IMG/VR virus record: IMGVR_UViG_3300009151_000300
Span: 1-27,960 of that record
DNA: 27,960 nucleotides
Source of the DNA: a virus
Reading direction: 5' to 3' (one strand)
The stretch's first letter is position 1; every line of letters begins with the position of its first letter. Of the stretch, positions 1,572 to 19,600 are shown one piece after another. A program made the translations under genes and the position numbers. The notes under the pieces were generated by a model. That model did no database searches. It was not told the origin of the DNA and saw only the letters and a list, made by a program, of their open reading frames with translations.

Positions 1572-1579
1572 TATTTATA
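1572..1579 (-). promoter_or_regulatory. T4-type late promoter box TATAAATA
   Basis: On the minus strand the bases read TATAAATA, the exact -10 box of T4 late promoters, which is recognised in T4 by the gp55 sigma factor. The box ends 18 bases before the ATG of the fiber-like gene (1553). That would give a leader of roughly a dozen bases containing the AGGA ribosome site. The box overlaps the stop codon of the upstream 201-residue gene (TAA at 1577-1575). Match and spacing are seen directly; use as a promoter is inferred. Confidence 0.65.
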
Positions 1580-2180
1580 CAGCGTTGATATTGCTCAAGG
1601 TCTGTATTCTAAGCGTGTAATCAATCTGAATTTGTCGATTCAAGCTCTTTTGTACCGGGTGAAAAATCACGTGTGTAATCAGGCGCAGATTATCTGCGCT
1701 ACCGTTCCAAGTTTTAAGTCCCAGCTCATCAAACACGTATTCACCGTTGTAATTGGTAGAATTGTCAAATGCTTGCTGTTGTGGGGGTTCACCGTAGTCC
1801 AACAAACAAGTTACCAGGATATCAGTGTAAAGATTACCTGCTGTGTGTAACACAGTCATTTTGTTGTTTTCGGGGTCTGTATCAGCGGCTGAGTTGTCGT
1901 CTACTACTTTTTGGTATGTTTGGTTATACAAGTCAGCGTTCTGTCCTGTGGTATTTGGGGGCAAATATGTAATAACACCTGTGGGGTCTACACTACTGCC
2001 GCCATTGCCAAATGCCATTTGATAAATGTAGCCCAGATTACGATCTGCTAGGCTTTGGGCCATTGCTACTGAAATGTTTTCATAGTGAATGGCGTTGTGA
2101 TCATCATAGAATATTTCACCGCTTGCAGGGTCATAGATCTTGACATGCCCTGAAATTTTTGCTAGTCCAGGCTCAATCAT
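1575..2180 (-). CDS. Putative virion structural protein, 201 aa
   Basis: The start ATG (2180-2178) overlaps the stop of the preceding small gene as ATGA and follows GGAGGGGCGAGC, a strong ribosome site about 7 bases away. The protein has no signal peptide or membrane segment. Its start 'ISGHVKIYDPASGEIFYDDH' and its later 'YIYQMAFGNGGSSVDPTGVI', 'VTCLLDYGE', 'GEYVFDELGLKTW' and 'THVIFHPVQKSLNRQIQIDY' give the impression of a conserved structural protein found beside baseplate and fiber genes in marine T4-like phages. I know no biochemical function for it. Its place between the giant baseplate protein and the fiber gene suggests an attachment or junction role, which is inference only. The first 30 residues resemble the C-terminus of the 49-residue neighbour. 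Confidence 0.85.
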   Translation of the reverse strand: MIEPGLAKISGHVKIYDPASGEIFYDDHNAIHYENISVAMAQSLADRNLGYIYQMAFGNGGSSVDPTGVITYLPPNTTGQNADLYNQTYQKVVDDNSAADTDPENNKMTVLHTAGNLYTDILVTCLLDYGEPPQQQAFDNSTNYNGEYVFDELGLKTWNGSADNLRLITHVIFHPVQKSLNRQIQIDYTLRIQTLSNINAV

Positions 2181-2326: not shown

Positions 2327-2345
2327 GGTCTTTTATTTACCTTGT

Positions 2346-5300
2346 TTATAAGCCACGCAAGAACCTTGCGGCTTGGGTATTGGTATCTTGTAGCGCAATT
2401 CCATCGCTGGCTGTGCCATCTCCCTGTGCGTACCAATTAAGACCCTGGCGCACCAAAATTGTAACTTCTGCGCCTGCGGCAGGGGCAGTTAACGGTGGAG
2501 ATACAGCATCGTCTATAACAAACTCCACTGCCAACGGATCGTAGTCTGTTATAAAATAACGGTATCGACTGGTCGCTGAGGTATCGCTATAAGCATATTG
2601 GCGTTCGCCGCCTACATATACTTCAACTGCATCTGTTTCCACTGTGGAATCCGCAAAGTCAGCAAATGCTATGCTTGGTGCGTAGAATATTGTAGTGCTA
2701 TCATCACCCATGCTTGAATCGCTTACAACTGAATCTTGATACTTTATAGGCAATAAATTGTTACGTCCCATATCATATACACTAGCACCAGTAGTGTGAT
2801 CGGCTGCACTGGTTCCTGCGGTTCCTCGCAACAGGCTCGAAATTGTATTGAGTGCTGTACTTCTTTCGCGGTACATGATACGCTCGCCGTTGATTGTGAT
2901 TACGCCAAAGATTCCTAACACTAAATCAGGGGTGCTTAAACGACTTGCATCTGTTACGTAAATAATATCAGCAGTGCTTGACAAATCTTGTGCTAGAGTT
3001 GTGGTTGTAGCCTCAGTAATTCTATAGGTTGCCTGCACTCCACGCATGTCTTGGAATATGCGGAAAGCCATTGCTTCTGGCACAACGCTATTGGTAAATT
3101 CTTCAATTACCATAACTTGAGATGCGCCAATTGCACCACTGGCTAAAATTAAGTAATCGCCTTGGACAGAGTAATCCACACCTTCAAACAATCTGTAACC
3201 ATCTAATGTAACCCACAGTCTACTGGCATTGTTTAAACTTCGTTCTAGATAGAAATCATTTGAGGCGACAGAAGTACCTACAGCGTAGTCAAACGATCCG
3301 GAAGTAAAATCAGTTGTGGCTGGAGAATAAACTGTGCTATCATAAGGTTCTGTAATTGTTAGGCCTGAAGTAATTGGACCTTGAAACACCAAGGTCAATG
3401 GCCATAATTGTGCAGTATCATTCCAGGTAGTAATACCAAATATGTCATTCAAATTGACGGTGGCTCTAACTTGTAACTGATTGCCAACAATTATATAATC
3501 TGCCACGGTGCTTACAGCAATTAAAATTCTTGCGCCGCTGACCGGAGGAGTAGTGAACACCACCTGACGTCCTGGCGTGTTGCTACCTGTCCAGTTGGTC
3601 ACACTATATGTTCCTACTGTGGCGCCGGCATTTTGCACTTGTAGTATGTTGTCAACCCAGACGCTTATATCTGTTGTTGGATTGATAATTTGTTGGCTGT
3701 ATCCACCGCGTTGTGGCAATCCAAAGCTCACACTGGAATCATCGCCGATCCATTCAATACCTTCAGCTGGCCTTAGTCTCAGACCATTGCGTGTGACCAC
3801 TGCGTTGACTGAATTTGATCCTTGTAGACTATTGGTTAAAACTATGGTTTTGTTAGTTACAATACTGCTGTCAGCTACAGTATACTGTGTTTGTGGAGTA
3901 CTCCACGAATATGCTGTAGATGCATTTCCAGTACCAGATCCAATTCCAGTGGCAATAAAACTAACACTTAATGTACTGGATGCGGCGCTAATTGCTGTCC
4001 AGTTGGTTGTGCCCACTTCGGTAATTGTATATGATTTGCCTATTACAAAATTGCCAGCATCAATGGTGTTTACTCCAAATGCCACCAAGGCAACACCATC
4101 GGTTAGGCCAGGATCAGTACCAAGGTCAACTAGACTTTGTAAAGTTGGGGTAAATTCAAGCCAGTACAAAGGATTAGAGATGCTTGTGCCAACTGGTACA
4201 GTTTGTAGCGCACGATAGTAATTGCCGCTGTCGTTGACAACGTCTAGAGTGTTATAGGTATCTAGGATGTTCCAAGCGGTACTTTCAGTATATGGAATCC
4301 AACTCACACCACTAATGATGCTGCCATTTATAAAAACAGCCACACTGGTAATTTCAGCAGAGTTGACTGGAATTATCACAGTCTCTCCAATGTCTCCGCC
4401 AATATAGTTGGCGCGATATAATTGGCTGCCACCACCTAATTCAAACACATTGATTTGGAATTGGTCGCCTGATGATACTGTCACTGGTACTACAGTTTGA
4501 TTAACCCAGTCAATAGTGTAATCAACATCACGTGTGAGATCTTTTCCTGTAGTAATATCGCTTACTAATACTTCTACTGGGTGATCAACCACATTTGCCC
4601 AACTGTATTCAAGTGCAATAGCAGGGTCATATGTGTAGCGCACTGTGCTCCATTGGAAACCGTGTCCGTCTCTGTTCCAGTCAGCACCAGGGCGTGTGTA
4701 AACACGGAAGTCAAGGGTATCAAATTCTGCACCGTTGATCAATTCTTCAGGTGAGTGCCCTTCATACAAGCCAATGAATTCGCCGCCATCTATATTGATG
4801 TCTGTAGGCAGGTCGCCTAGTGTAGTGTCTGTAAATTCACTAGAGTAGGTAGCATCTATACTTAAAGGATCGCGCAAGAAGTAGTCGCCGTACACCTGTA
4901 CGCCAGGGTAGTCAACTCCATCAATTAACAATGGTAACTCAAGTCCTGGCTGATTAACTCCAGGTACATAGTATCCCATGGTACGATCAACACCTGTTAA
5001 GTTTCTAGCAGGTACTACAGTCCAATCTTCAAGATTAAATGCAGGGCCAACTACTGCGGTTGAATCAGCAGGTGTGGCTTGCCATACGCGATCTTCATAT
5101 CGTACCAACATACCAGATTGATATGTTCCATCTGGGTTCCAGGTCATTACATCACTGAAGTATTGGAATCTGTCGTATTTTATTACTGTGCGAAAACTAC
5201 GCACAAGATTGTTGTTCATTCTGGCATAGGCACGGGCTTCCGTTCCGTTGCCACCGTCAAATGTGATAGCAGGTGTTTGGCTATATCCAGATCCTGGATT

Positions 5301-8300
5301 TGTAACGTTTACTGCAACTACTTTTCCTAAACTGTTAATAATTGCAACTGCTTCAGCTGACTCAACAGCATCACCTGTGATAACCACTAGAGGTGGTTCT
5401 GTATACCCCGAGCCGCTGTCAATAATTTCTACGCTATCCAATACTAACAAATAATTGCTATACCACTGATTGTAAGGCCAAGTGGTCCATACAGCACTGG
5501 TTGCGGGCAAATCGCTTTGTGTATTTGTTTGAGAATTAAACGCATCGCCGTGAGCATATGGCAACAAGATTGGACTTGTAAACGTAGGTACTTCTAACGC
5601 GGTATTGTAATATGCCGGCAAATCAAAGTCAGTTAGATCACCAAAAAACTCGTCAAAGCCAGTGTACTTTAGATTGAACTCGCGAACACTAACGTGATAT
5701 GGTTTGACTTCTTGGATATAGTCTTGTACAAACTCCTGGTTGTCAATCACATAGTTTTGATACGGAATCAGTTGACGAATTCTGTGATCCACATCAATCA
5801 AACTGGTCTTGACCAGCCACTCTGGTGCTGAAAATTCACTCAACACAAAGTTAAACATTAGCACCAAGGCTTTGTTGCGTTGGATAGCAAGATCATCTAT
5901 TAGTAGTTCTTGATTGATGGCCTGAATGATTTTGCGAGTTTCTGTCACGGGCTCTTGATCAAAATATTGAGCATCAAAAACTTCAACGTCAAATCCAAAG
6001 CGTCCTAGTGCGTAGTCCCATAATTCAGCAGAGAATTCAATGGTGCCGTCTTGCAATGCAACTCGTTCCCATCCTAGATCAGTCAACAAATAAATTTCAA
6101 ATTTGCCTTGAGCATTAGCAGTGACTTTGACACTGCTACCAATAGGAACAGTAAGGGTTGCCAACACTGAATAAGTAGCAACTTCTGCCACAACCTTGGT
6201 ACTAGAATTGTAACCAGGACGATACCAATTGATATAACTCCAGTAATCTGGTGTGTTGTATCCTTGCACCCGAGTTAGAGTTAATACTCTTGTGCCAGGT
6301 GCGGTATCACTTTCTTCAACTGTGTAGATTGTCCACAGGCCGCGATTGAGACTGTCAGTGGCCACAAGGTATTTGTAACCTAGTGGAATAGATCCGTTGG
6401 GATTACTCCAGTATGGGGTTTGAAAACTCAGTATCTCTAGGTTGGCTACCTGTAGATCCCACAGAGTTTCAGTCACGCTATCAACTACCACAGTCTGCGG
6501 AGGAATAGGTTCGCTACTGTTGAGCAGATAGAATGATCTACTTTCACTAATAGGATACTGTGCTAATACTGCATTCACCCGCTTCAAATAGTTTTTCAAT
6601 GCAAGGAAGCGATCCACAAACATACTCTGACGCGGACGGAACTGAACCCCATAACGCTCCGACGGGCCAAGGTTAGGGTCAGGTACTTTGTTGCCAAATG
6701 TATCTACACCGCAAAAACTATCTTGAAGTTTGCGATACAAATTATCGCTCAAGAAACCGTCAGCACGATCTTGTGGGATTAACTCATATTCAACGTGAAC
6801 GTTATCATTATTATACTCACGATCATATTCAATACTAATGATAGTATCGCTGGCGCTGATGTAGTCCGCACTGTTGTACAATGCAATTGTACTGGCATTG
6901 ATTGGTGCCATATAAGGAATACCACTGGCCTTGGGATCGGTAATGTAGGATGCAACTGTACTTGCTGGCAATGTTTTGCCAAGTTGCGAGGATGTCACAG
7001 TAATACCACGCACCCAGAAATAATAATAGGTAGCAAATGTTCCATCTTGTGATAGATTGCTGTTTATAGTATAAGATGTTGTATTTAAAGGCGTGCCCTC
7101 ACCAACATAGTTTGCAGGCGGTGTATTGCTTTGCACCCATTGATACACATCAACTGTGCTACCAGGGAATAGTTGTGCCCAACGACGGCTGGCGTATGTG
7201 ATTGAATCTTGGTTAGGATCAATAAATCTTACCGAACTAATATCCCACCAAATTTCTCCCACGTGGCTTGCAAACCATGTGGTGTTGTTTAAGTTTGTGC
7301 TACCGGTATTGTAAGAGGCAGGATCTACTGCACTAACATAATCAATATTGGCGCGGGCCGCGCCAAGAATCTTGCCTTGCAACGGGTTGATAAAGTCCAA
7401 GAACTCTGTTCTAGCACTGGTGATTCTATCATACAAGAACACACTATTCAACAGTCGAATATCAACTGTGGGTTGTTCAATTTCTACCACAGCCCAGGCC
7501 GGTGAATTGGTTGGGTTCTCAAACACAAACACAGCACCAAAGTTGGCTGCACTATCGCCAGCATCATCTTTTGGTGCGCCAACCATTAGCACACCCGAAG
7601 TATAATTCACTGCCGCTCCGAATTGATCGTATGGTCCAACCTGACTATTGTTGACCTGTTGTCCAAACACAAACTTACCTGGATTGGTTATGCTCAATGA
7701 ATTGCTAGGCAAATAATCAAATGTATAAATTGCGCCGCTTTGAATGATTACCGAGAAAAATATGGTACTGCCAGCATCAAAATATGTTGTGCCATCATCA
7801 AATACAGTTTCAAGATATAATGTACCACGTGGTGCGCCAACTACTAAGTTAATAGCATTGTCGTTGATACTGATAGCACTGCCAAAGCCTGCATACTCTA
7901 CTGGGTACGGGCTGGTGATTGATTGTGTCCAGGCAAATGTATTAAATCCTAATGTAGTAAACGCTGTGCCTACACTGCCTGGAGCCACTTGCACTTTGTT
8001 AAATGGTGCGGCAGCGTCAGAATTTTTAACACTGATTGTGAGATAGCCTGTGGTGCTTACTGTGGCCAGCACGTTTGGCACTGTGTTGTTGATGGCTGTG
8101 GCCAAACTTGCCACTGTGGTACCAGTCAACATCACATCCTGGTTGTTGACTCTTAGAGTATTGCCCACGGTCAGCACAGGATTGGCCACTGTGGCAGTGA
8201 TTGTGCCGTAGATACGACTTTGATTTACAAAACGTTCAACTATGCCGCCTTTGAATATTTGCACACTACTCTGTGGCTCGCCCACATACAGGCTACAGTT

Positions 8301-11300
8301 GTTGTCACAGATGGCCACGGCCTGACCAAAGTTTGAATAGTTGGCCGCTGTGTTTTGTGCGACTGTTTGCAACAGGTTAAACTGGTTAGTTTCAATCTCA
8401 ACTATATCACCCACCTGCAAGTCCGCAAAGATTGTAACTGTGTTACCACTTACTGTGAACGAGTCCGGGGCGTTGATCACGCTGTTGGTTTGATTGATGT
8501 AGAATTCGTTGTTGACAATCACGCTTACAGGTGCAGTTGGGGTAGTTCCTAATACTGTGAAGCTCACGCTAGATGGATCTTCACCATAGATGAATCGTTG
8601 TACATTGCGATCAAATACGTAAACTTGTCCAGCTTCTGCATTGCCGTTGACTGTGGTATAAGGTGTACCTACCATGACCTGACGACCGTCTGTGGTGCAA
8701 GAAATGCTGTGACCAAAACGATCTGTTGCGCCAAGCCCAGCCACTGTCAACGTGTTTACATATTCAAAATAGCCTTCGGCTTTTACAACTATAATATTAC
8801 TGCTGATATAAGATCCAGTAAATGTTACAGTTGTGCCAGAGAATGTATAATCAATATTGGGACGTAATAGTGTTCCATCAACTGTGATACTAAACGAATA
8901 AATGTTTGTGGCAGTGAACAATCCCGGCAGCGACGAGGAAACTCCAGCAAGGTTGTATGTTGATACAGTGTATGGAATTTGGAAACTGTTGTATCGTGCA
9001 AATTCAATTATTATATTAGCAACGGCTGTTCCTGTGCCGGATCCAACACCAGTAGCAACAAATGTGACTCCTACTGTGTTTGAACTTGCACCAATTGCCA
9101 CATAGTCCGTGGTTCCCACGGTTAAAATAGTATATGTTGTCCCAATGTTAAACCCTCCAGCAGTAGTTTTGCCAGGAATAGATGTGAATGTAACAATATT
9201 AAAGTTATTGTCAATGGTGTAATCAACATTGACTGTTTGTACTTGTCCATTCAAAGTTACCTTGAGTTGGTACTCGTTGTTGATTTGAATAGTACTGTTT
9301 ATAGCATAAGAAGTTGTTGTGCCATCAGCAAAAACTTTGATAAACTGACTTTGCCAATCAACATACCCGTAGGCGTGTATACTGTTTAGGCCTGGAGCAC
9401 CAATATACATCCAACGTTCATCTAAACTCATTGCTACTGAATAACCAAACTCGCCTGCGCCAGTTAGTAGTGTTCCATAGCCTGCGGGTTGAGTGAGCAA
9501 CTGCCATTGACCATAAGGAATGACCCCAGGTGCTCCCAGTTGTGGATCACGATAAATCACACAGGCATAACCGTTGTTGGCTTGACTACCGGACCCTAAA
9601 CTGGCACTTGCACCTGCTACTGCCCAATTTTGATTGCCAAAGTCCACAGCATTACCATATCCGCGTACACCTGTTACATCTAATGTAAGGATAGCATCAC
9701 CTTGACCCACTGGGCTTACTGGAGTGTATTGATCGCCATAGCTCTTGACATACACATATATTGCACCTTTTGTGGTGCCGGTATTAAATCCATAATTTGG
9801 ACTGCCTACCAAGGCGGCCAGTTTATTTCTAGCCTGAGCAACACTTTGGCCGTATTGTTCGTTGGCGTCTAATAGTACAGGATTTAATGCAATGATGCTT
9901 GAGAATACATTGTTCTTTTGTAGTACTTCCCATAGCCCTGCACCATTGTCGTCAACCCAAACTTTGGCACCTGGCAAAATATTCAATGCGTACGGCAACG
10001 TGTCAACATCGCTGGCCTGACTTATTCTTGTGGTTTGTAAAGTAAATCCAATTCCCGATCCATTGGCCACAGAACGGTTGCTAGTAAATGTAAATGCAAT
10101 ATTCACTGTGTCAAGATTTGGCACGCCAAGTACTGTGTATACTCCATTGATTTCAGTATCAAAGAATTTGATGATTAGTTTATCGCCAACACTTAATTTG
10201 TGTTGGTCGTTAAAGATCACACGACTTGTGCCATTTAAGTTATCACAGACGTGCTGGATTTGCCCTGGCACTGCCTGGGCACGATAGATGCCCCAGTCAT
10301 AATTGTTAATCTTGGCAACCCAAATGCTAGTACCTACTTCAATTTTGTCTATATTGGCAGCAAGACTGCTTGGATTTGCAATGTCAAACACTGTGATATC
10401 AGTGTCGTCAAGACTCACATACCCGGCAGTCGGCAATCCAATATCAGTTGGCAGTTCAGTTGTGGTAGGAAGAATGTCAGTACTGGTAAGTTTATAACTT
10501 GAGCGCCACACATCAGTTAGATATATTTGTTGATCTGCTTGACTTGGTTCTTGTGGTACTGTAACTTGTACCAGACTAGGATTAGAACTTAATAGTGCTC
10601 TATCCAAACGCAACTCAAGGAAACTACGATTAGCATTAGCACCATACACCGCACGTTGCACTGCCCAGTTTTCGTAGATGGTGTAGTCGGCGGCTTCTTT
10701 GCCTAGATTGGCTGCTTTGAAAAGATCAGCGGCTAAGATGGTGCCTTTGGTTCCCAAAAACTGACGATACACGTTTACTTGACTCACATCGTCAAGGTTC
10801 AATGCGGCTAGATATTGTCGTGGTTTAAATCCTATCAGACCATATGCCAATAAATCATTGTCAGTCTCAATGTTTGCGGCGTTGATGTTGTAACTATTGG
10901 CCAATTGATCGGCCTTGTTGGCCAAGTTAGGTAACAGTCCGAGTTGAATTTGATTGTAGTTGCTTTGTGCCCAGACATTGAAGTCAAACTTTGTGCTAGG
11001 CTGAACAATGGTCAATGCCGACCAATACACATTTTTGTACTTGACAATTTGTCCTTTGGTGTATCGTTTTAGTCCAGTCCACTCTTGGACGTTGTCTTGA
11101 TTTAAAATAAATCCTGGAGTATCTACCGATCCATTCCAGTCATTGGTAGTAACTGCCACAAGGTTTAATCTATTTTGTCTTGCCCCAGTTATAGGATCGT
11201 AAATTAAGTCTCCAAACACACTCTTGTTACTTAATACAATCATATGTTCAAAATTAGTAAATCTTAAGTTGATGTAACTGATACTTTGTGTGCTCAATGG

Positions 11301-14300
11301 TTGTATAGTAAAGGTATTGCCTAATCGAACAACGTTCAGAGTCCGGGTGGGGATTTCATTTGAATTTTGGTCTAGCAATAAGTTTTCGCTGGTCTCAGTT
11401 ACAATGCTATCTACTACAGCACCTGGGCGAGTAACAGTCAGCCCCATAGCCAGTGGATTTAAATTAATAATAGCATTAGAACCCCAACCTTGTTGACTCC
11501 AATACAGGAACTCATTGACCATTCTTGACCAATCAAGAATATAACCATTAACTATATTAGTAAATGTTAAGCCTTGTTTTTCTAATAGTTTTCCGTAACT
11601 GAGCAAGAAATCACTCACCGCAGTTTCGTTTGCAAACACAAATCCATAAGGAACTTGTGTTACGTTATTTGAATAAAAAGTTGGTACTCGTACAGTAATA
11701 CCACCGGCACTGTATTCTTGTAATTTTCCTACTGCTTGACTTTGTAGTATTTCAAAATAGGCCTGTGATGAACCGTATCCAAATACGGCATAGCCGCCGC
11801 CGCCATCTACCTTTTGTACTGCTACACTACTGTACCTAATTTGATCAAATGGTTGGTTTTTGTACAACAAGATGTTGTAACTTTCGTCTGGGATTGTTAG
11901 TGTTGTATTGGTACTGTTAGGACTAGATTTTTCAGTCAACAATTTAATATATTGTTTGTCTGAATAACTGGCCATTCTGTAACACAATCTAACATCCAGC
12001 GCCTTGAGGTCAGCCGTTAACAAATCAGTTGAGTCTATGCCAGTTTGTCTATTGTAATCCACAATCCAGTTGATGTAACTGGCCTTGCTAGTGCCATTGC
12101 CATACACTTCAATACCGTTGGCATCTAGTCTATAACGTTGATTGTAAAGGAACTGATTATAGTCAGTATCAAATTTATATAAATCTCGATCAGCAAACAG
12201 CGCAAAGAACTTGGCAGGACGAGTCACTGCCAATACATGCATTACCGAGAATGGATATCCACTAGAGTTCCACCAAGATGCTTCAACTGGGCCACCGTCG
12301 CCAATTGCCCAACTCTTTTGGTATCTAGAACTGATGTTTTGATTTAATGGTACGCCTCCCACAACACTATCTCGTGGGCTCAATAGTTCACCTTCACCTC
12401 CTGTGGGAATAACCGAAGTTAAGCCAGGTCTTGAGTATTTGGGTTTGTAGTAAGGTGCAACCGGATCAGCCACAAGACCAGCTTCTAGGTCATCCCACAA
12501 CACCAAGTTGTCAGCGGTATATGGAGCTGGACCATAACGGCCGACCCACCATGAGGGTTCAACTTCTAATCCCAACATTTCCCAAGGTGAGTAACTGGGT
12601 TGTTGCGTGTCGTAAAAGTAGCGATAGATACCGCGCCAGGCGCCTAGTAAATTTTGCTTATTGAGTTTGTTGGTGTCACTGGTATAGTTCCATGTAAAGT
12701 CATTGGTGGCACTAAACACTTGTTCGTTATAGTTTAACTTGTTCCATCCGCAATAACTCAATAGATCTGTGCCAAAAATAGTATTGATTTCTTCAAAGGT
12801 ATATCCAGTGTCACGGAACTGTCCAGGTAACACATCTTCCACAGTGAGTGGTACAGGATTGCCATCTTGTTTGATGTTGCTGTAAATTCTAGTTTCAAAT
12901 TCTAACAACACCTGATCACGAATGTCACCAAACACCGGAGTTTCACTACCGTCGTGGCCGATGATAAATTCACCTGTACCGTTTGAGGTTACCAAGGTTG
13001 TGATTTCTGGTTGCCATTTTGGATATAACCCCATTTTACTAGGCGTATTAGGTACAAAACTTCCGTAGGTGGCGTTGTATTCGTTGATAATAACAGTATC
13101 GCCAATAGCAAGTGTAGCCGATATTGTCAAACGTGGACCGTCTACCGCCACAACATAATCTTTGTCTCTTGTTAAAATATCATTGTTTAGATATACACAA
13201 AGACCAAGATAGTTAGATGATGTGTAGTTGTACACCTGTACAGTATCAAATGTGGCCCGAGTTGTTAGGCCCACAGTATAGGTATTACTATAAGTTGTAA
13301 CACCTTGGGGAATCATATCGCCCCAATAGAATGGTTGGGTATCTAATTTTCCTAAAGTGATATCTTGTATGGCCTGATCAAGAATACTAGAGGTAGTTTT
13401 AAGCGCAATGTTATTTTGAATCAACACAGCATCCAGCATCTGTGCTTTGAACTTGATATATTCGCGACTGTTGTATTGTAATGATTCAAATATGTTGTAA
13501 CTAGGACTACGCATAAAGTAGCCGGCCAAAGTTAACGGGCTACTTTGTTGTAGAATTTCTAATCCGTAAGGAATGATGTTGCCAAGGTCTCTGCTGTTGT
13601 TTGATCCGTTGATTGGTCCAGTTAAGGTCAATAGATTTTCACAGATACTTTCATAGTGTGTGCGTATGGTGCCCAATGTAAATGCAGGACTGTTTGAATT
13701 GAAAGGATTGCTTTGTAAGTTGTTGGGTACTTGATAAAATCCCACATTGCTGGTTTGGTCGCTTAATGCCAATACTTCAATAACATCTGTGGGTAGATAT
13801 ATATCAGTTAATGTAATAACTGTGTTATCTGTTCCCACAGTATAAGTGTACATACTTGGTTCAATAAACACACTACCAACATAAACTTTTATTACAGGAA
13901 ATGCAATCGATGATTGTGCTAATACTGGAACATCAAGTTTAAGAGTTTGCCCTGTATAGGTAAACTTAAATTGTTGATAAATTTGCTGTGTTACAGCCGC
14001 AGTTTGCCAACCAATCAGTTTATGATATGTTACTCGATCTTCGTACTCTCTAGCGGCACCAGAACTGATAGGATAGGTAGTACTTACATTGTCAATAGTA
14101 TAAGTGAACGTGTCAACATACAAGTTATTGTCAAACAAAATATCACCAACGTTGTTGATGTTTAGATATTGTAAGGGGAATTGCAATACAGGATCAAGAA
14201 TGGTTGTGTCGCCCACAGCATAACTGAATAATTTTGATCCTGTAAAGTCACTTGATTGGTATTTGACTTTGTTGCCAAAGCTCACACCTTCCGTGTCATA

Positions 14301-16658
14301 CACATTGTACAAAGGTGCCTGTTGAACTGCAGTCTTTTGTTGTGCCTGGATCCAAGCAGTTCCATCGTACCAAAATGTTTTTCCAGCAATGGTTTCACCG
14401 TTCAAACAAACAGTAGATTCATCTAGCTGTACTGCACCGTCTGCGGCTTCGGTCAACACGATAATTGGCTGTGATATAAGTGGCGGTATAGTATCTGGGG
14501 TTGCAAAACTTACCACATAAATTTTATCACGCACACTGAGATCAGTGTCCGCGGCAAATATAACTCGCGACCCTTCAACCAATGTGTAACCATTGGTGGT
14601 GTAACTGGTGGTGCCTTCTACGTTTGAAAACGCATCAGTTTCTGCAAAGTCAATGATATCCACTGGTGCTTTGCCTTTGGTACCCATATTCCATAAACGA
14701 ATACCTGGACGGAACTGTATGATTGGCCGCTTGGCTCTAAAATTATTGTCTAGGTCGGCGACTGTGTTGTTGTATTTGGCTGTGGCATTGATTACATCAA
14801 TGTGGAACCAGCGGTTACTTCTTGTCCAGGCATTTAAGTCTCGGCTGGCACGACTAATGGTCAAGTAATCTATATCCCCTGGTTCTACTGCAATTGTGCT
14901 GTCATTATAATCTGAAGCATAACTTTCGTAGACTGCAAAGTCTTCAACTGGCAATAGATCAATTGCTGAGCCAACACCACTCACATAGTATTCGTGATCG
15001 CTAATGGCAATTGAATTCATTGTGCCTGTGCCGTTTAACAACGTTACCGCTGGGCCATTAGGCACTGCACTTACTGTAAACTTGATTCCACTGGCCGCAA
15101 TTGATCTCACATAGTATGTTGTACCAGCGGTCAAGCCGCCCAGTGTTGGTGTTAAGAATACAACTGCTTGTCCTACATACAAATGAGTAGCATTGTAGTA
15201 GGTGATATAGTTTGTGCCAGCTTCAGTAGCAGTACATTGAAAACTACTAGTTCCCGAAGCATAGCTGGCAGGAACAACATCGCCAGTAAATTTTACTTTG
15301 AGACCATTGGTAAATGTTACCCCGTTAGGACTTGTATATGTTTTTTTACCAATAATATTATCAATGTCAAGAGTGCTACTATTGCCCGGTTCAACTAGTA
15401 CAATTCGCCCAAAGATTTCTGAGTTAGTTCCAGACTGATAGTACAATGTGTCTTGTACCGCAGTCAGTAAAGGAATCTGTTGAAATGCTCCTACTGCATC
15501 TTTGTACCACTGAGTATTGCTGTATACGGCACCATAGCTGATGTTAAATTTATTAAGATTTGCAATATCTGACGTTTTGCTTAGGTTGATGTAGGTAACA
15601 CCGCCATTATCTACATAGGTAATGGTCCAGACTTGATATCTGTCTTCTGGTGGTATGTCTGTTGTTTGACTAAATGTTGTGGTGTCATAACTACCAACCA
15701 ATCCATTGTTGGCTGCACCGGCTGCCAACGGATCAAAAAAAGTAGTGCGTTGCCAGCCGCCTGCTTCGGCATCAGTAATAGGGTTGGTGAATATCAATGT
15801 GCGGTTGTTTAGATTGGTAATGCCATCTATGCCGCCATATTCTAAAATAAAGTCTGTTAGTGATCGATTATTGATTTGATCAAACTGTAAGTTAGTTACC
15901 AAGTCAATGGTGCCAATGCTGTTTAGGTTATAATAAAAACTTTGTGCGTCTTTGAGTGGTGCATTGAATACCACAGTACCAGAACTAGTACCGTTGTCAG
16001 CTACCCCATAAACATCTCTTGAGCTGATGTTAGGAGTGGCAGGCATGGTACCTGCGATTCCCGGTGCTGCCTGAATCCAAAATTGGTCAGTGACCTGGAA
16101 AGTGTAACTGCCGCCACGCACCAATTCGATTACAGGGTTGTTGCCAATTACACCTGAGAAGTTGTAGGCATTGCCATTGGTTGTGACCACGTAGTTAGCA
16201 GTGGTAGGTATTCCAGTAGAACTAACACTTACTGCCGCAGGGCCGCCTGGAATCCAATAGTATTGACTAAAGTTTATAAATGCATCAAAGTCAACAAACG
16301 GATCCCAGGTATAATATTCGCTTGAATACAGTCTATCTGGGCGACCACTGTTGCCACCTTGGAACCCCACAGCATCGTTGATGCCAGGATATGTAATGGC
16401 ATTTTTAATAGTGCTAGAATCAGGCACAAGACTGACCACGCCCGGTTCAAGCTGATAGTCAGCTCGTGTCTTGGTGGGTTCAATTACATATTTGTCGTTG
16501 GGGTTTATGCCCGGACCAACAGTACGACCAATAAAGCCTTGTGTTTTTCTAAAGTTAGGCTCTTGAATCAGTTGGTCAAGTGTGGCAGCCAAGAATTGCT
16601 TGTTGGCATCGGTCTGAAAAATTTCAGGAAGAAAATCTACGCTACGTGTGTTGGCCAT
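2346..16658 (-). CDS. Giant baseplate/tail structural protein, 4770 aa (gp7-position, multi-domain)
   Basis: One uninterrupted 14.3-kb frame. Its ATG shares one base with the gp6 stop (TAATG) and follows GGAGTAGTTTA, a good ribosome site. Approximate regions: 1-130, conserved N-terminus with 'FLPEIFQTDANKQFLAATLD' and 'YYTWDPFVDFDAFINFSQYY'; 490-525, a 'LYVGQAVVF...GTTYYVRSI' module; 1353-1373, 'PSYSPWEMLGLEVEPSWWV'; 2273-3053, seven FG-GAP-like segments; 3292-3353, 'LIPQDRADGFLSDNLYRKL' and 'RYGVQFRPRQSMFVDRF'; 3573-3686, a conserved stretch ending 'EVKPYHVSVREF'; 3740-3812, paired 'SGSGY...PP' units; 4560-4600, 'ADIIYVTDASRL' and 'ITINGERIMYRERS'. Small beta modules with a 'G...L....DY' core recur along the chain. 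T4 encodes the wedge protein gp7 after gp6, so the N-terminus may fill that role. The rest is probably peripheral baseplate or receptor-facing structure. The gene is certain; the role is inferred from position and domains. Confidence 0.88.
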   Translation of the reverse strand: MANTRSVDFLPEIFQTDANKQFLAATLDQLIQEPNFRKTQGFIGRTVGPGINPNDKYVIEPTKTRADYQLEPGVVSLVPDSSTIKNAITYPGINDAVGFQGGNSGRPDRLYSSEYYTWDPFVDFDAFINFSQYYWIPGGPAAVSVSSTGIPTTANYVVTTNGNAYNFSGVIGNNPVIELVRGGSYTFQVTDQFWIQAAPGIAGTMPATPNISSRDVYGVADNGTSSGTVVFNAPLKDAQSFYYNLNSIGTIDLVTNLQFDQINNRSLTDFILEYGGIDGITNLNNRTLIFTNPITDAEAGGWQRTTFFDPLAAGAANNGLVGSYDTTTFSQTTDIPPEDRYQVWTITYVDNGGVTYINLSKTSDIANLNKFNISYGAVYSNTQWYKDAVGAFQQIPLLTAVQDTLYYQSGTNSEIFGRIVLVEPGNSSTLDIDNIIGKKTYTSPNGVTFTNGLKVKFTGDVVPASYASGTSSFQCTATEAGTNYITYYNATHLYVGQAVVFLTPTLGGLTAGTTYYVRSIAASGIKFTVSAVPNGPAVTLLNGTGTMNSIAISDHEYYVSGVGSAIDLLPVEDFAVYESYASDYNDSTIAVEPGDIDYLTISRASRDLNAWTRSNRWFHIDVINATAKYNNTVADLDNNFRAKRPIIQFRPGIRLWNMGTKGKAPVDIIDFAETDAFSNVEGTTSYTTNGYTLVEGSRVIFAADTDLSVRDKIYVVSFATPDTIPPLISQPIIVLTEAADGAVQLDESTVCLNGETIAGKTFWYDGTAWIQAQQKTAVQQAPLYNVYDTEGVSFGNKVKYQSSDFTGSKLFSYAVGDTTILDPVLQFPLQYLNINNVGDILFDNNLYVDTFTYTIDNVSTTYPISSGAAREYEDRVTYHKLIGWQTAAVTQQIYQQFKFTYTGQTLKLDVPVLAQSSIAFPVIKVYVGSVFIEPSMYTYTVGTDNTVITLTDIYLPTDVIEVLALSDQTSNVGFYQVPNNLQSNPFNSNSPAFTLGTIRTHYESICENLLTLTGPINGSNNSRDLGNIIPYGLEILQQSSPLTLAGYFMRSPSYNIFESLQYNSREYIKFKAQMLDAVLIQNNIALKTTSSILDQAIQDITLGKLDTQPFYWGDMIPQGVTTYSNTYTVGLTTRATFDTVQVYNYTSSNYLGLCVYLNNDILTRDKDYVVAVDGPRLTISATLAIGDTVIINEYNATYGSFVPNTPSKMGLYPKWQPEITTLVTSNGTGEFIIGHDGSETPVFGDIRDQVLLEFETRIYSNIKQDGNPVPLTVEDVLPGQFRDTGYTFEEINTIFGTDLLSYCGWNKLNYNEQVFSATNDFTWNYTSDTNKLNKQNLLGAWRGIYRYFYDTQQPSYSPWEMLGLEVEPSWWVGRYGPAPYTADNLVLWDDLEAGLVADPVAPYYKPKYSRPGLTSVIPTGGEGELLSPRDSVVGGVPLNQNISSRYQKSWAIGDGGPVEASWWNSSGYPFSVMHVLAVTRPAKFFALFADRDLYKFDTDYNQFLYNQRYRLDANGIEVYGNGTSKASYINWIVDYNRQTGIDSTDLLTADLKALDVRLCYRMASYSDKQYIKLLTEKSSPNSTNTTLTIPDESYNILLYKNQPFDQIRYSSVAVQKVDGGGGYAVFGYGSSQAYFEILQSQAVGKLQEYSAGGITVRVPTFYSNNVTQVPYGFVFANETAVSDFLLSYGKLLEKQGLTFTNIVNGYILDWSRMVNEFLYWSQQGWGSNAIINLNPLAMGLTVTRPGAVVDSIVTETSENLLLDQNSNEIPTRTLNVVRLGNTFTIQPLSTQSISYINLRFTNFEHMIVLSNKSVFGDLIYDPITGARQNRLNLVAVTTNDWNGSVDTPGFILNQDNVQEWTGLKRYTKGQIVKYKNVYWSALTIVQPSTKFDFNVWAQSNYNQIQLGLLPNLANKADQLANSYNINAANIETDNDLLAYGLIGFKPRQYLAALNLDDVSQVNVYRQFLGTKGTILAADLFKAANLGKEAADYTIYENWAVQRAVYGANANRSFLELRLDRALLSSNPSLVQVTVPQEPSQADQQIYLTDVWRSSYKLTSTDILPTTTELPTDIGLPTAGYVSLDDTDITVFDIANPSSLAANIDKIEVGTSIWVAKINNYDWGIYRAQAVPGQIQHVCDNLNGTSRVIFNDQHKLSVGDKLIIKFFDTEINGVYTVLGVPNLDTVNIAFTFTSNRSVANGSGIGFTLQTTRISQASDVDTLPYALNILPGAKVWVDDNGAGLWEVLQKNNVFSSIIALNPVLLDANEQYGQSVAQARNKLAALVGSPNYGFNTGTTKGAIYVYVKSYGDQYTPVSPVGQGDAILTLDVTGVRGYGNAVDFGNQNWAVAGASASLGSGSQANNGYACVIYRDPQLGAPGVIPYGQWQLLTQPAGYGTLLTGAGEFGYSVAMSLDERWMYIGAPGLNSIHAYGYVDWQSQFIKVFADGTTTSYAINSTIQINNEYQLKVTLNGQVQTVNVDYTIDNNFNIVTFTSIPGKTTAGGFNIGTTYTILTVGTTDYVAIGASSNTVGVTFVATGVGSGTGTAVANIIIEFARYNSFQIPYTVSTYNLAGVSSSLPGLFTATNIYSFSITVDGTLLRPNIDYTFSGTTVTFTGSYISSNIIVVKAEGYFEYVNTLTVAGLGATDRFGHSISCTTDGRQVMVGTPYTTVNGNAEAGQVYVFDRNVQRFIYGEDPSSVSFTVLGTTPTAPVSVIVNNEFYINQTNSVINAPDSFTVSGNTVTIFADLQVGDIVEIETNQFNLLQTVAQNTAANYSNFGQAVAICDNNCSLYVGEPQSSVQIFKGGIVERFVNQSRIYGTITATVANPVLTVGNTLRVNNQDVMLTGTTVASLATAINNTVPNVLATVSTTGYLTISVKNSDAAAPFNKVQVAPGSVGTAFTTLGFNTFAWTQSITSPYPVEYAGFGSAISINDNAINLVVGAPRGTLYLETVFDDGTTYFDAGSTIFFSVIIQSGAIYTFDYLPSNSLSITNPGKFVFGQQVNNSQVGPYDQFGAAVNYTSGVLMVGAPKDDAGDSAANFGAVFVFENPTNSPAWAVVEIEQPTVDIRLLNSVFLYDRITSARTEFLDFINPLQGKILGAARANIDYVSAVDPASYNTGSTNLNNTTWFASHVGEIWWDISSVRFIDPNQDSITYASRRWAQLFPGSTVDVYQWVQSNTPPANYVGEGTPLNTTSYTINSNLSQDGTFATYYYFWVRGITVTSSQLGKTLPASTVASYITDPKASGIPYMAPINASTIALYNSADYISASDTIISIEYDREYNNDNVHVEYELIPQDRADGFLSDNLYRKLQDSFCGVDTFGNKVPDPNLGPSERYGVQFRPRQSMFVDRFLALKNYLKRVNAVLAQYPISESRSFYLLNSSEPIPPQTVVVDSVTETLWDLQVANLEILSFQTPYWSNPNGSIPLGYKYLVATDSLNRGLWTIYTVEESDTAPGTRVLTLTRVQGYNTPDYWSYINWYRPGYNSSTKVVAEVATYSVLATLTVPIGSSVKVTANAQGKFEIYLLTDLGWERVALQDGTIEFSAELWDYALGRFGFDVEVFDAQYFDQEPVTETRKIIQAINQELLIDDLAIQRNKALVLMFNFVLSEFSAPEWLVKTSLIDVDHRIRQLIPYQNYVIDNQEFVQDYIQEVKPYHVSVREFNLKYTGFDEFFGDLTDFDLPAYYNTALEVPTFTSPILLPYAHGDAFNSQTNTQSDLPATSAVWTTWPYNQWYSNYLLVLDSVEIIDSGSGYTEPPLVVITGDAVESAEAVAIINSLGKVVAVNVTNPGSGYSQTPAITFDGGNGTEARAYARMNNNLVRSFRTVIKYDRFQYFSDVMTWNPDGTYQSGMLVRYEDRVWQATPADSTAVVGPAFNLEDWTVVPARNLTGVDRTMGYYVPGVNQPGLELPLLIDGVDYPGVQVYGDYFLRDPLSIDATYSSEFTDTTLGDLPTDINIDGGEFIGLYEGHSPEELINGAEFDTLDFRVYTRPGADWNRDGHGFQWSTVRYTYDPAIALEYSWANVVDHPVEVLVSDITTGKDLTRDVDYTIDWVNQTVVPVTVSSGDQFQINVFELGGGSQLYRANYIGGDIGETVIIPVNSAEITSVAVFINGSIISGVSWIPYTESTAWNILDTYNTLDVVNDSGNYYRALQTVPVGTSISNPLYWLEFTPTLQSLVDLGTDPGLTDGVALVAFGVNTIDAGNFVIGKSYTITEVGTTNWTAISAASSTLSVSFIATGIGSGTGNASTAYSWSTPQTQYTVADSSIVTNKTIVLTNSLQGSNSVNAVVTRNGLRLRPAEGIEWIGDDSSVSFGLPQRGGYSQQIINPTTDISVWVDNILQVQNAGATVGTYSVTNWTGSNTPGRQVVFTTPPVSGARILIAVSTVADYIIVGNQLQVRATVNLNDIFGITTWNDTAQLWPLTLVFQGPITSGLTITEPYDSTVYSPATTDFTSGSFDYAVGTSVASNDFYLERSLNNASRLWVTLDGYRLFEGVDYSVQGDYLILASGAIGASQVMVIEEFTNSVVPEAMAFRIFQDMRGVQATYRITEATTTTLAQDLSSTADIIYVTDASRLSTPDLVLGIFGVITINGERIMYRERSTALNTISSLLRGTAGTSAADHTTGASVYDMGRNNLLPIKYQDSVVSDSSMGDDSTTIFYAPSIAFADFADSTVETDAVEVYVGGERQYAYSDTSATSRYRYFITDYDPLAVEFVIDDAVSPPLTAPAAGAEVTILVRQGLNWYAQGDGTASDGIALQDTNTQAARFLRGL
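3920..4062 (-). repeat. Protein module copy B (IGKSYTI...VGTT...ATGIGSGTG)
   Basis: Residues of about 4199-4246 in the giant protein read 'FVIGKSYTITEVGTTNWTAI' then 'SFIATGIGSGTG'. The segment matches a second copy at bases 9020-9165. This short module is, to my knowledge, common in phage structural proteins. The copies are clearly related in protein but diverged in DNA, so the duplication is old or the copies were acquired separately. Confidence 0.8.
5220..5440 (-). repeat. Paired GSGY modules in the giant protein
   Basis: Residues of about 3740-3812 hold two successive units: 'IIDSGSGYTEPPLVVITGDA' and 'VAVNVTNPGSGYSQTPAITF', the second followed by 'DGGNGTEARAYARM'. The form GSGY..PP.V.I.G...A.A is, to my knowledge, common in beta-rich phage structural proteins. 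No catalytic residue pattern is visible. Confidence 0.7.
7500..9840 (-). other. FG-GAP-like beta-propeller region inside the giant protein
   Basis: Seven segments of the giant protein fit the FG-GAP pattern (FG..V......D....VGAP....G.VYV). Approximate residues and text: 2273-2305 'LVGSPNYG...GAIYVYV'; 2332-2372 'WAVAGASASLG'; 2401-2431 'FGYSVAMSLDERWMYIGAPG'; 2643-2685 'FGHSISC...MVGTPYT...GQVYVFD'; 2771-2804 'FGQAVAICDNNCSLYVGEPQ'; 2919-2949 'FGSAISINDNAINLVVGAPR'; 3007-3053 'FGAAVNYTSGVLMVGAPKDD' then 'FGAVFVF'. The FG-GAP family is known from the seven-bladed propeller of integrin alpha chains, where some blades bind calcium. Here about 210 residues separate segments 3 and 4, with shorter insertions elsewhere, so other domains would project from the propeller. 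The fold is inferred from motifs. Confidence 0.65.
9020..9165 (-). repeat. Protein module copy A (IGTTYTI...VGTT...ATGVGSGTG)
   Basis: Residues of about 2498-2546 in the giant protein read 'FNIGTTYTILTVGTTDYVAI' then 'TFVATGVGSGTG'. It is the partner of the segment at 3920-4062, about 1700 residues away in the same chain. It lies in the insertion between FG-GAP-like segments 3 and 4, beside two beta modules of the 'DY' type. Confidence 0.8.
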
Positions 16659-19600
16659 TAAACTACTCCGCTACCAGGTGCGGTACGCAAGTTGGTACTG
16701 GTCAATGCTTCAATAACTTCAATGTTGTTGATTGTTGCACCATTTACAAATATTTCGTTTGGTGCTGAACGTATTTCATATAGATCACCAAAACTCTTTT
16801 GACTGTTGAGTGGTACCAAGACCACTGAACTGATAATTGTTCCAAGCTCTCTATGCAAGTAGGCTGCCAGTTCAGAGAAATAAAATGTGTCACCAAAGTT
16901 CCACTTGTCTATGCTAAAGTATGTGTTCATTGAGGCTACCACACTACTCTTGATCTCACTGGTACTGGCAGTGCTTCCTTGAGCACGAATCACTTTGATT
17001 GTGGCACGTAATTCTTGTGAGGCTTTCTGGCCAAACAAAGGCTTGAATACTACCGAGTTCAAAATAATATTGTCGCTCAACATTTTGTAATTTTGCAAGC
17101 CTTGGTACTCGGTTGATAGTTCATCAATAGTGGGCACATCAGGTTCCATCACAGTACCTGTTGTGTCACGGATCCAGTTTTGATAGGCAGTATAATAGCT
17201 CAATGTCACAACATACAGGTCAATGATATTGGTAGTGCCTGGATCAATTCTGGCTGTCAGTGGAGCATTATGTCTATATTGGAAATATAAACTTTGACGC
17301 CCAGTTCTGGCAATCCATTCATTAGTGACATTGATCAAAGTTCTGGCACCAGTATAACTTACTGATAATTGGTAAAAGGCACTTTGCTCATAGGCATAAA
17401 ATACTTGCCCTGGTGTCCAGGCGCTTTTTTGCAATTCAATTTCGTCGTATGTACCGTAGTCGCTGGTAACCAAGCCCGGCTCTACCAATAGGTAGCGTTG
17501 TAGGTTGTCGAAGTCCACCGTCTTTTGTAAGTACACGTACTTCTGTGTTGGGTTAGTAGTAGGCGCAACAATTTCACTAAAGAAATCTGGATTATCCGGC
17601 ACACCATCGTTGTCGTTATCACGGTAGCCTACTAACACCTGGAAGTCGTCAACATAGCCATCACTTTCCACCGGTTGTCCAGTAATAGTCATATAGATAT
17701 CGCCTGGTAAATGGTCAGTGGAGTCAGGCCGGGTGTTCACTGCCAATACATTAATAAAGTCCTTGATCACCGTGCCTGTACGGCTGTCGTAAATTTGTCC
17801 ATTGCTATAGTAGAAGAAACGTGTTTGGATAACTGATCCAAACGAGTATGCCAGGCCGCGGAAGGTAGTTGTGTAATTTTGATTTTGCACAACAAATTGT
17901 ATTAACCAACTTGCATCTAAGTTAGCGCCCGATGTGTTGCCGGCATACTGTTGACTCCAGGTACTATCTTGTGCCAAGTTAGTGCTAGAAATCAAATACC
18001 ACGAATATGGAGTACCAGTAATATCGCCGTTGTTGTCATAGCCCAAACCAAAGTTGCGATTTAACAAAATTTGTTCGGCAATACTTTGCTCTACCGATAC
18101 CGGTAGATCTGTAACAAACAATGGAATAATTGTGTTAACTAATGCACCGGTAGGCACAAAATTATTAAGTGCAACAGGACCGGCGCCTGAAGTAAGATTG
18201 CCAAGACCATTATTATATCCATTACCAACAATGCTGATTGGACTAGCCCAAATTTCTAACTTTTGATCTGCGGCAGTTGGAACACCTTGTTGTAGTTTAT
18301 TGTTCTTGTCAAAGTAATAACCAGCAGGAGGAACAAACTTGATCAGGCTACCTACGGCCACATATTTGAATGCTGTGGTTGTGGTTGTACCCACTGGAAT
18401 AGGCGAACCGGTAGGCCATTGAACAGAGTAAACATCATTTTTAAAGTATCCTGTGGTTTCGTTGGCCAGTGTGGTACTTTGTGTCCAGCTTGCACCAGGT
18501 ACCCAGACGGTACCACCATATGTGGGCAAGGTAGTGGCTGTGACCCTGGGAAAGTTTTCATAGTAAAACTGCCGCATTGTAGTTGTTGCAATTGATGGCT
18601 GTACTTGATTAGTAACAAAGTCGGCTATCTCATTGCGGTTGGTCCACGAAAACAACACAGTAGGAAGGATATTCTGTTCCCATAATCCGCCGTCACTACC
18701 GAAAGTATTAGTTGAACTGTATTTGCCAGTATTATCAACCAAATCAAGATAACGACTTGTGCCAATACTAGCACGGTTGAGAGCTTTTGACTTAACAATA
18801 GAATTGTATTGTGTATATGGAAAAAGGTTGTAATCCTCGCCATTGACCATACGGTCTTGGGTGTAATATCTTGCAGGAGCACGTTGCTTAATAGCTTCAA
18901 TTGGCTCACGTGCTTGGCTGTTACTTACTGGTTGAGTAATGCCACAAGTAAACGTTAGTGTTTCTAAGTTGCCAGAACGACTGATGTAACTGATTGGAAT
19001 AGTCACTGACTGCATTTCTTCAGGATTAATAATATATTGCAATCCGTTACTTGCGCGAACATACGCACGGAAAGTTCCTACTGGGATTTCTGAGAATACA
19101 CCATCGCCGAACACCATGGTAATCTGATCGTTAGTGCGGCTTGTTACTGAATAGATAGGGCGCAGATCTGTGGCTGTTTGTTCTGCACCAGCTGAGTAAA
19201 TGTTTTGAGTATACGCCCACTCTCGACTGACTGTGCCCACATTATCTAATTGAAACAACCAACGGTCTTCGTTGTTGACGCCTTCGATGTTGATGTTCAC
19301 TGTGCGGTTGCTGACTTTTTCACTCAAATTAAAGTCTTGATTCTGTAGCACACCTTGCTTGAACATAAAGAAGTAACCGGTGTTGGCTGATTGAAAACCC
19401 AGGCTATCGTTACGGAACAAGATATTGAATGGCACATTTGCTTGTGGTGGCGGCTCATACAAATATGTTTCGCCTGCTGACGTAGATGTCATTGCTTCAA
19501 AGGGCATGTTCACGCCGTCAACAGTAGCAGTATAAGGCACCACTGGCAAGTATCCAGGCACTAGATTAATGCCGTATTCACTGGTAACTACACCTAATAA

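Follow-up and report, generated by a model that had tools for sequence, protein, structure and literature searches.

In pelagi- and cyanomyophages, T4 Gp7 "appears to be substituted" by VrlC (PMC7029224), which means that a giant protein standing in for gp7 has already been proposed in print for another lineage. T4 gp10 carries the domains XD2 and XD3, which bind gp11 and gp12; XD2 of the CBA120 protein TSP4 shares their fold, and XD-type domains in CBA120 bind other tailspikes (PMC8825819). Very large proteins are also known from particles of jumbo phages. CBB_236 gave 21 peptides (7.72% coverage) and adjoins CBB_237, the gp6, with 13 peptides (12.47%) (PMC5259590, Table 4). In the phAPEC6 virion, gp245 (381.88 kDa) was detected with 17 peptides and 7.6% coverage, and gp244 (131.18 kDa), numbered beside it and named "baseplate wedge", with 21 peptides and 24.2% (PMC7247149, Table 1). 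AP-J-162 has a 4,455-aa "structural protein" listed after the wedge proteins (PMC11242549), and the database record of the PA5oct giant, gp355, notes ESI-MS/MS. The CBB giant's membership of the family treated below is backed by a tblastn match; for phAPEC6 gp245 we infer it from position and size only. This mass spectrometry evidence places relatives in the virion and does not specify the baseplate; the published tail map of phAPEC6 is at near 25 A. Whiskers or hairs on CBB and phAPEC6 are reported without explanation in the portions of the papers used here (PMC7247149, PMC5259590), and no function is given for the giants in database records or in those portions of the cited particle and genome papers.

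The giant gene and its place behind gp6

The window, meaning the whole 27,960-base viral fragment analysed here, carries on its minus strand (16658-2346) one unbroken ATG frame of 4770 aa, for which 522 kDa, a pI of 4.4 and 12 cysteines were computed from the translation. The length of the frame is not due to chance, because the longest other listed frame within it has 213 aa. The product is a new member of PHROG 10938, a widespread and already catalogued family of giant virion proteins: it has the whole-protein profile match, the place after gp6 and the backbone blocks in order. The giant and its neighbours are as follows.

2346..16658, minus strand: giant virion protein, 4770 aa (PHROG 10938 "virion structural protein", E 2.8e-285)
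16658..20134, minus strand: gp6-like baseplate wedge protein, 1158 aa (PHROG 10646, E 4.6e-280; PHROG 219, the T4 gp6 family, E 1.5e-21)
20182..20559, minus strand: gp25-like baseplate wedge protein, 125 aa (gp25-type families; Pfam match under the curated cut-off)
1575..2180, minus strand: conserved 201-aa protein, directly after the giant (PHROG 11259)
3..1553, minus strand: fibre-like protein, cut by the contig end (PHROG 14394 "virion structural protein", E 9.8e-11)

Read along the minus strand, the genes encode an open-ended virion protein, a 99-aa wedge protein (PHROG 7145), a 1020-aa protein, a gp5-like protein (PHROG 13211), a 338-aa protein without a family match, gp25, gp6, the giant, the 201-aa protein and, at the contig end, the fibre-like protein. 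The 99-aa protein is taken as gp53-like by analogy with the annotation of a Vibrio phage gene in the equivalent place. The gp6-like gene and the giant overlap by one base. A first-pass annotation made from the sequence had described a single 14.3-kb frame directly after gp25 and gp6, in agreement with the ATG frame and the wedge-family matches upstream; it had also listed three genes downstream (small, structural and fibre-like), where the window has two (1575-2180 and 3-1553). "Fibre-like" is a reading by eye that we share with that annotation. The 201-aa neighbour gave no match by hhalign to gp8, gp9, gp10, gp11 or gp53, for which the T4-side profiles are thin. Similar-looking neighbours were seen by eye beside the giants of PA5oct, Atu_ph07, SCTP-2, Vibrio 2.275.O and Phosso. 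Since the window is a fragment, only its relatives allow a test of whether other genes are absent.

An artefactual origin of the frame, through a fusion in the assembly or through read-through across several genes, could be suggested by its length and by one relative (L276) in which the frame is split in two. The same single frame is present in other contigs and in isolates, and a 382-kDa relative was found by mass spectrometry (PMC7247149). One contig, L011, has a gp6 that is 100% identical and a giant that is 99.97% identical over the first 3,332 residues, which makes a local assembly accident unlikely. The artefact reading has a negligible probability and is refuted for practical purposes.

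The first 1,686 residues of the giant matched 57 phage records by tblastn at E ≤ 1e-5, with lengths of 284-490 kb among the matches listed (40 of 57). Sharanji, a 121Q-like phage, is recorded on the E. coli K-12 strain MG1655. Giants of the eight named jumbo phages span 3,323-4,555 aa (Phosso 4555, Atu_ph07 4449, PA5oct 3857, SCTP-2 3807, Vibrio 2.275.O 3771, GAP32 3341, XaC1 3332 and 121Q 3323 residues). PHROG 10938 giants are unusually large virion proteins that are common in uncultured viral contigs, where one scan gave at least 593 confirmed stretches of the family; scans seeded with the SCTP-2 and Vibrio 2.275.O giants gave no relatives. A set of 89 diverse loci was examined, drawn from several scans, the largest of which contributed the best 80 of 593. 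Complete frames in 32 of the 89, near-duplicates included, measure 2,072-4,720 aa between stop codons, with a median of 4,301.5; the lower end is set by one of the two halves of a split frame. Five other diverse frames lack a 3' end and still run to more than 5,480 aa, the longest to 5,612, and in five of six near relatives a module match falls in an open frame of 4,774-4,911 aa. At 4,770 aa, the window giant is large yet ordinary for the family.

A gp6 match lies directly ahead of the giant in seven of the eight named jumbo phages (phmmer with the window gp6, E 7e-170 or better), and a gp6 profile match does so in 84 of the 89 diverse loci; four of the remaining five loci start inside the giant at a contig edge, and in the fifth (L267) an 815-aa frame shows no match. 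By gene order the giant therefore occupies the gp7 slot, as the first-pass annotation had it. Gp25 was found by tblastn in six of the eight named regions, that of PA5oct being known by annotation only. In SCTP-2, a 3,096-aa gene precedes the giant and gave no gp6 match by phmmer; gp6 lies at 231230-234964, some 92 kb from the giant, which shows that the two can be separated. The place directly behind gp6 is usual in the family, not universal.

Conserved blocks and variable modules

Pairwise searches of the window giant against the eight named giants found blocks in common at about residues 1-147, 524-2126, 3015-3390 and 3472-3690, and little in common at 190-520, 2130-3010 or after 3690. Block profiles matched the 32 complete diverse frames in all cases for A, B, C and D, in 31 for E, H and J, in 30 for I, in 24 for K and in 14 for M. 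Among close relatives (34 N-terminal and 77 C-terminal sequences, residues 3121-3360 left out), mean identity to the window was 0.90 at 1-60, 0.41 at 301-360, 0.48-0.51 at 2461-2580 and 0.36-0.48 at 4081-4260. As judged from these sequence comparisons, the giant is a conserved scaffold with a fixed block order and exchangeable inserts. The N-terminal 130 residues had been singled out as conserved in the first-pass annotation; the N-terminus is conserved, up to about residue 189 among close relatives and about residue 147 among distant ones, but conservation is not confined to it, as the blocks in about 524-2126 and 3015-3690 are also common to the eight named phages. The beta-rich modular build noted there is borne out by the alternation of variable and conserved blocks and by predicted beta modules. 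The parts of the giant are listed below, with residues numbered from its N-terminus.

16092..16658, minus strand: block A, residues 1-189, most conserved N-terminus (32/32 complete diverse giants; identity profile)
15393..16211, minus strand: region holding a predicted cupredoxin-like beta-sandwich, residues 150-422 (rusticyanin 2cal, VIA-align Z 9.4, rmsd 2.0, 91 residues)
14997..15251, minus strand: small beta domain, residues 470-554 (phage head-to-tail protein 9jlf_E, Z 8.1, tied with an unrelated enzyme)
10281..15089, minus strand: backbone blocks B-E, within residues ~524-2126, common to named jumbo phages (pairwise and profile searches)
13749..13982, minus strand: predicted jelly-roll module like TSP4 XD2 / T4 gp10-type docking domain, residues 893-970 (7rfv 187-250)
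13074..13316, minus strand: second, homologous jelly-roll module, predicted, residues 1115-1195 (cyanophage A4 9k09_U 741-821)
7629..10271, minus strand: variable region, residues 2130-3010, with FG-GAP_2 repeats, best stretch 2637-2682 (Pfam FG-GAP_2, 40 bits)
9180..9326, minus strand: weak XD-like copy, residues 2445-2493 (i-E 1.9e-5)
8979..9161, minus strand: mobile module copy 1, residues 2500-2560
8778..8912, minus strand: weak XD-like copy, residues 2583-2627 (i-E 5.1e-4)
8388..8486, minus strand: weak XD-like copy, residues 2725-2757 (i-E 3.1e-4)
5589..7616, minus strand: backbone blocks H-J, residues 3015-3690 (30-31/32 complete diverse giants; model pLDDT 77.7)
2349..5591, minus strand: C-terminal variable modules, residues 3690-4770 (block K 24/32, block M 14/32)
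5178..5441, minus strand: GSGY-type beta module, residues 3740-3827 (PHROG 460, E 4.2e-11; PHROG 1922, E 1.2e-9)
4443..4547, minus strand: weak XD-like copy, residues 4038-4072 (i-E 3.1e-4)
4242..4376, minus strand: weak XD-like copy, residues 4095-4139 (i-E 7.7e-3)
3882..4061, minus strand: mobile module copy 2, residues 4200-4259

The FG-GAP_2 match, at 40 bits, lies above the curated Pfam cut-off of 23, and the repeat region is possibly a beta-propeller. The GSGY-type module also occurs in neck and gp5-like families.

Structures were predicted with AlphaFold2 for residues 1-1195 (79 sequences, mean pLDDT 86.2, pTM 0.68) and 3000-3720 (60 sequences, mean pLDDT 77.7, pTM 0.57). Foldseek against the PDB gave 0 matches at E ≤ 0.001 for both models, and the PDB gave 0 matches by sequence at E ≤ 1 with the window giant and alignments A2 and A3. 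In the cupredoxin-like domain, the copper ligands would presumably fall within columns 241-262. Of the 79 rows, 45 have residues there, with no Cys in any of them and a His in a single one, and the other 34 are mostly gaps; a loss of copper binding is no more than likely. The 3000-3720 model is confident over model residues ~62-555, with a best VIA-align Z of 4.1, and its stretch 487-543 resembles collagen XVIII trimerisation and P22 tailspike folds (Z 3.7-4.0); it may represent a new fold, or a common fold missed in a 721-residue search. In BFVD this model had 16 matches at E ≤ 0.001, which we take to be further giants, from Atu_ph07 and from uncultured phages, several of them nameless; nothing named gp7 stood among the 50 matches listed. 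T4 gp7, gp8 and gp10 are absent among the VIA-align matches listed, in fold tables that do not exclude them.

A tail-surface adhesin, whisker or fibre protein, encoded behind gp6 by chance, would fit the beta-rich and acidic composition, the FG-GAP and mobile modules and the variable C-terminus, as well as the whiskers or hairs on CBB and phAPEC6 (PMC5259590, PMC7247149) and the SCTP-2 giant away from gp6. Against chance placement stands the gp6 linkage in 7/8 named phages and 84/89 diverse loci; further, no collagen family appears among the Pfam matches, and GAP32, treated as possibly without whiskers (PMC5259590), carries the gene too. We regard such an adhesin as improbable.

Comparison with T4 gp7 to gp11

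Sixteen records were screened, namely 14 relatives (the eight named jumbo phages and six IMG/VR records, the latter possibly fragments), T4 and S-PM2. PHROG 964 (gp7) matched T4 only, with no match in the 14 relatives. PF09215 (gp8) likewise had no match in the relatives' records, T4 being above the cut-off and S-PM2 matching weakly. PF07880 (gp9/10 N) was above the cut-off only in T4 and sub-threshold in five of the six IMG/VR relatives, SCTP-2 and Vibrio 2.275.O. The same three families matched in 1, 1 and 2 of 14 control genomes, never above a cut-off where one exists. PHROG 17744 matched T4 and S-PM2 only, and none of the 14 relatives or the controls. For the window giant there was no gp7-family match (PHROG 964, Pfam Gp7 domains) in Pfam at E ≤ 0.1 or in PHROGs at E ≤ 10, a search whose filters drop most matches above ~0.1. 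PHROG 438, the cyanophage-type gp8, matched giants and other frames in 8 of the 14 relatives' records and was considered as a gp8 candidate. It was rejected because the matches always lie within model 163-301, a GSGY-type stretch, and do not cover the ends matched by T4 gp8.

Thirteen segments of the giant and alignments A2 and A3 gave no match by hhalign to the T4 gp7-gp11 set, and the scores against the T4 gp7 family or the S-PM2 core lay within the range of a reversed-gp7 control. Neither sequences nor profiles show the giant to be homologous to T4 gp7, gp8, gp9, gp10 or gp11. The T4-side gp7 profile holds 5 sequences only, and the positive control, the S-PM2 giant against the T4 gp7 core, reached E 0.002-0.003 at a probability of 10-13%, so a more distant gp7 could be missed. 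Gene order allows a gp7 identity, for which the sequence gives no evidence.

The giant could still be a true, extremely diverged T4 gp7 that comes from the gp7 ancestor, forms the same core with gp6 and was enlarged by inserted modules. It sits in the same slot behind gp6, and T4 gp7 is a monomer present in 6 copies against 12 of gp6 (PMC3004832), a place that would suit one long chain. Moreover, part of the N-terminal region of the 3048-aa slot protein of S-PM2 is related to the core of T4 gp7 (PHROG 17744, E 1.7e-13 in S-PM2 and 3.5e-6 in T4), so giant gp7 proteins exist. Such descent, which we consider possible though unlikely, has against it that neither the 13 segments nor A2 and A3 matched the T4 gp7 family or the S-PM2 core, and that PHROG 964 and 17744 are silent in the records of the 14 relatives. 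An identity with VrlC was also considered and dropped: against one VrlC sequence, the window giant matched in the generic K module only (E 0.0013, prob 18), the backbone was not found, and homology over the whole protein is lacking.

Some likeness to T4 peripheral proteins lies in two predicted folds. Residues 893-966 match TSP4 187-250 (7rfv) with a VIA-align Z of 8.6 (62 residues, rmsd 1.6 A) and the LME-1 tail protein 9efk_AE with Z 8.3, and residues 1121-1195 match the cyanophage A4 tail chain 9k09_U with Z 8.6 (70 residues, 2.6 A); these and the cupredoxin match, at Z 8-9, are close to the level that the tool calls common. TSP4 187-250 is taken as XD2 because the N250 construct is without XD3. 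The 1115-1195 module is homologous to the 905-970 module (hhalign prob 96, E 4e-9). The two profiles of the XD-like modules were run on 41 giants, 32 of them diverse and 9 named, the window giant being counted with the latter and near-duplicates retained. They gave 123 matches, with 0-8 per giant and a median of 3, against 2 for shuffled and 7 for reversed giants; as many members had contributed their first two modules to the profiles, matches to those are circular. Four of the 41 (L309, Atu_ph07, Vibrio 2.275.O and 121Q) had no XD-like match, so docking modules are not universal, and one match each in four of the nine proteins of the gp6 set means that the weak XD-like copies may be background. 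Profile comparison of the XD-like modules with T4 gp10 by hhalign was not significant. A strict regular expression for the module, with 2 sites against an average of 0.01 over 200 shuffles, missed T4 gp10 itself and was therefore not kept as a test.

Pieces of gp10 do occur outside the giants. In PA5oct, the C-terminal part of gp10 is matched by gp358 (435-604, E 2.2e-17), which is encoded three genes downstream of the giant, and a gp10-like N-terminal motif is present in proteins outside the giant in all six IMG/VR relatives (best E per record 1.6e-7 to 3.2e-4), the motif family also being matched in 1 of 14 control genomes. These findings bear on the full reading of the first-pass annotation, in which one chain replaces gp7, gp8, gp9 and gp10 together and no separate gp7, gp8, gp9 or gp10 is recognisable. 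In its favour, gp8 (PF09215) was unseen in the relatives' records, as was gp7 (PHROG 964), the gp9/10 N-terminal family passed its cut-off in T4 only, and two gp10-type docking folds are predicted in the giant. The gp10-like pieces in PA5oct and the six IMG/VR relatives speak against a full replacement of gp9/gp10, and at such a distance a gp8 that goes unseen in sequence searches is not proven absent; replacement of all four proteins is very improbable. The broader claim, that the giant replaces several proteins, has partial support from the predicted gp10-type folds and is in part contradicted by these pieces.

Proposed role and described counterparts

The reading we prefer, at somewhat better than even confidence, is that the giant is a wedge component or scaffold on gp6 of T4-related jumbo myophages, with its place, copy number and gp6 contact inferred; the separation of the two genes in SCTP-2 lowered this confidence slightly. 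The giant would be bound to the gp6 ring as a baseplate wedge component and would form a long multi-domain arm, fixed to the baseplate by its backbone blocks. The jelly-roll modules could offer docking places for fibres or spikes, by analogy with T4 gp10 and TSP4, and the variable inserts (the FG-GAP region, mobile modules and C-terminal modules) would face the host or the medium. Such a protein would stand where T4 has gp7 and would assume some of the docking done by gp10, without proven descent from either of them. If the giants are a wedge arm, T4-like baseplates can be rebuilt through modular growth of one protein, and there would be a defined place in which to seek receptor-binding modules in uncultured phages. 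A bolder version, which we hold to be distinctly unlikely, is that one half-megadalton chain per wedge, unrelated to gp7, took over the outer baseplate, holding gp6 via new folds and carrying a string of built-in gp10-type docking jelly rolls; fibre attachment sites that are separate trimers in T4 would then be strung on one polypeptide.

Among described systems, T4 gp7 (1032 aa) has the gene position after gp6 in common with the giant, none of whose segments showed homology to it. T4 gp10 XD2/XD3 and CBA120 TSP4 XD2 may share the jelly-roll fold predicted for the modules, but T4 gp10 and TSP4-N are trimers, and the giant has no significant profile match to gp10. S-PM2 YP_195115 (3048 aa) is, as in the window, a giant after gp6 in the gp7 slot; S-PM2 keeps gp8 and the gp7-like core stretch, whereas the backbone of the window giant is not found there, and YP_195115 and VrlC (2747 aa) have single beta modules (K and M regions) in common with it. 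The closest counterparts are the PHROG 10938 giants PA5oct gp355, Atu_ph07 gp180, GAP32_230, 121Q gp582, XaC1_312, CBB_236 and, by position and size only, phAPEC6 gp245. They lie behind gp6 as in the window, those compared have the backbone blocks in common with its giant, and several are known from virions. The window giant is longer than the eight measured named members, though not than some uncultured ones, and differs from them in its variable modules.

Modules and neighbor of the giant protein in the window

The giant 4,770-residue virion protein contains two copies of a module of about 60 residues.

Window 8979-9161: module, copy 1
Window 3882-4061: module, copy 2

In close relatives, 44 copies were found in 37 of 79 C-terminal frames (L097-L176), the module was present in 21/70 N-terminal frames, and its location varied among several different sites. 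Outside this group, it was rare (6/89 diverse giants), and none was found in the other eight named giants, those of jumbo phages. The varied sites, together with this distribution, make the module look mobile. Directly 3′ of the giant gene lies a 201-aa protein that is strongly conserved within the window's lineage, with 83-100% identity across the best 80 of 594 confirmed loci.

Window 1575-2180: 201-aa protein

Gene arrangement in relatives

In Salicola phage SCTP-2, gp6 lies about 92 kb from the giant, and the 3,096-aa product encoded upstream of the giant had no match to gp6; this protein is a second giant adjoining the first. The L276 giant is in two frames of 2,072 and 2,855 residues that overlap by a few bases, and the break, which falls within conserved backbone block D, may be a frameshift, a sequencing error, or a true split. 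Three annotated radical SAM genes lie a few genes 3′ of the giant on the same strand in Atu_ph07, and radical SAM genes are likewise placed in Phosso.

L007:10633-19923: 3,096-aa gene, SCTP-2
MF360958.1 231230-234964: gp6, SCTP-2
L276:5861-20622: split giant
L004:6909-13070, giant's strand: radical SAM genes, Atu_ph07 (annotation)
L006:36870-43792, giant's strand: radical SAM genes, Phosso

Beta module and cyanophage gp8

In the records of 8 of the 14 relatives, GSGY-type stretches, a beta module also present at giant residues 3740-3827, are matched by model positions 163-301, the middle part of the cyanophage gp8 profile.

L096:16810-18714: gp8, cyanophage S-PM2

Since the matched frames include giants and other frames, different tail proteins have one beta module in common.
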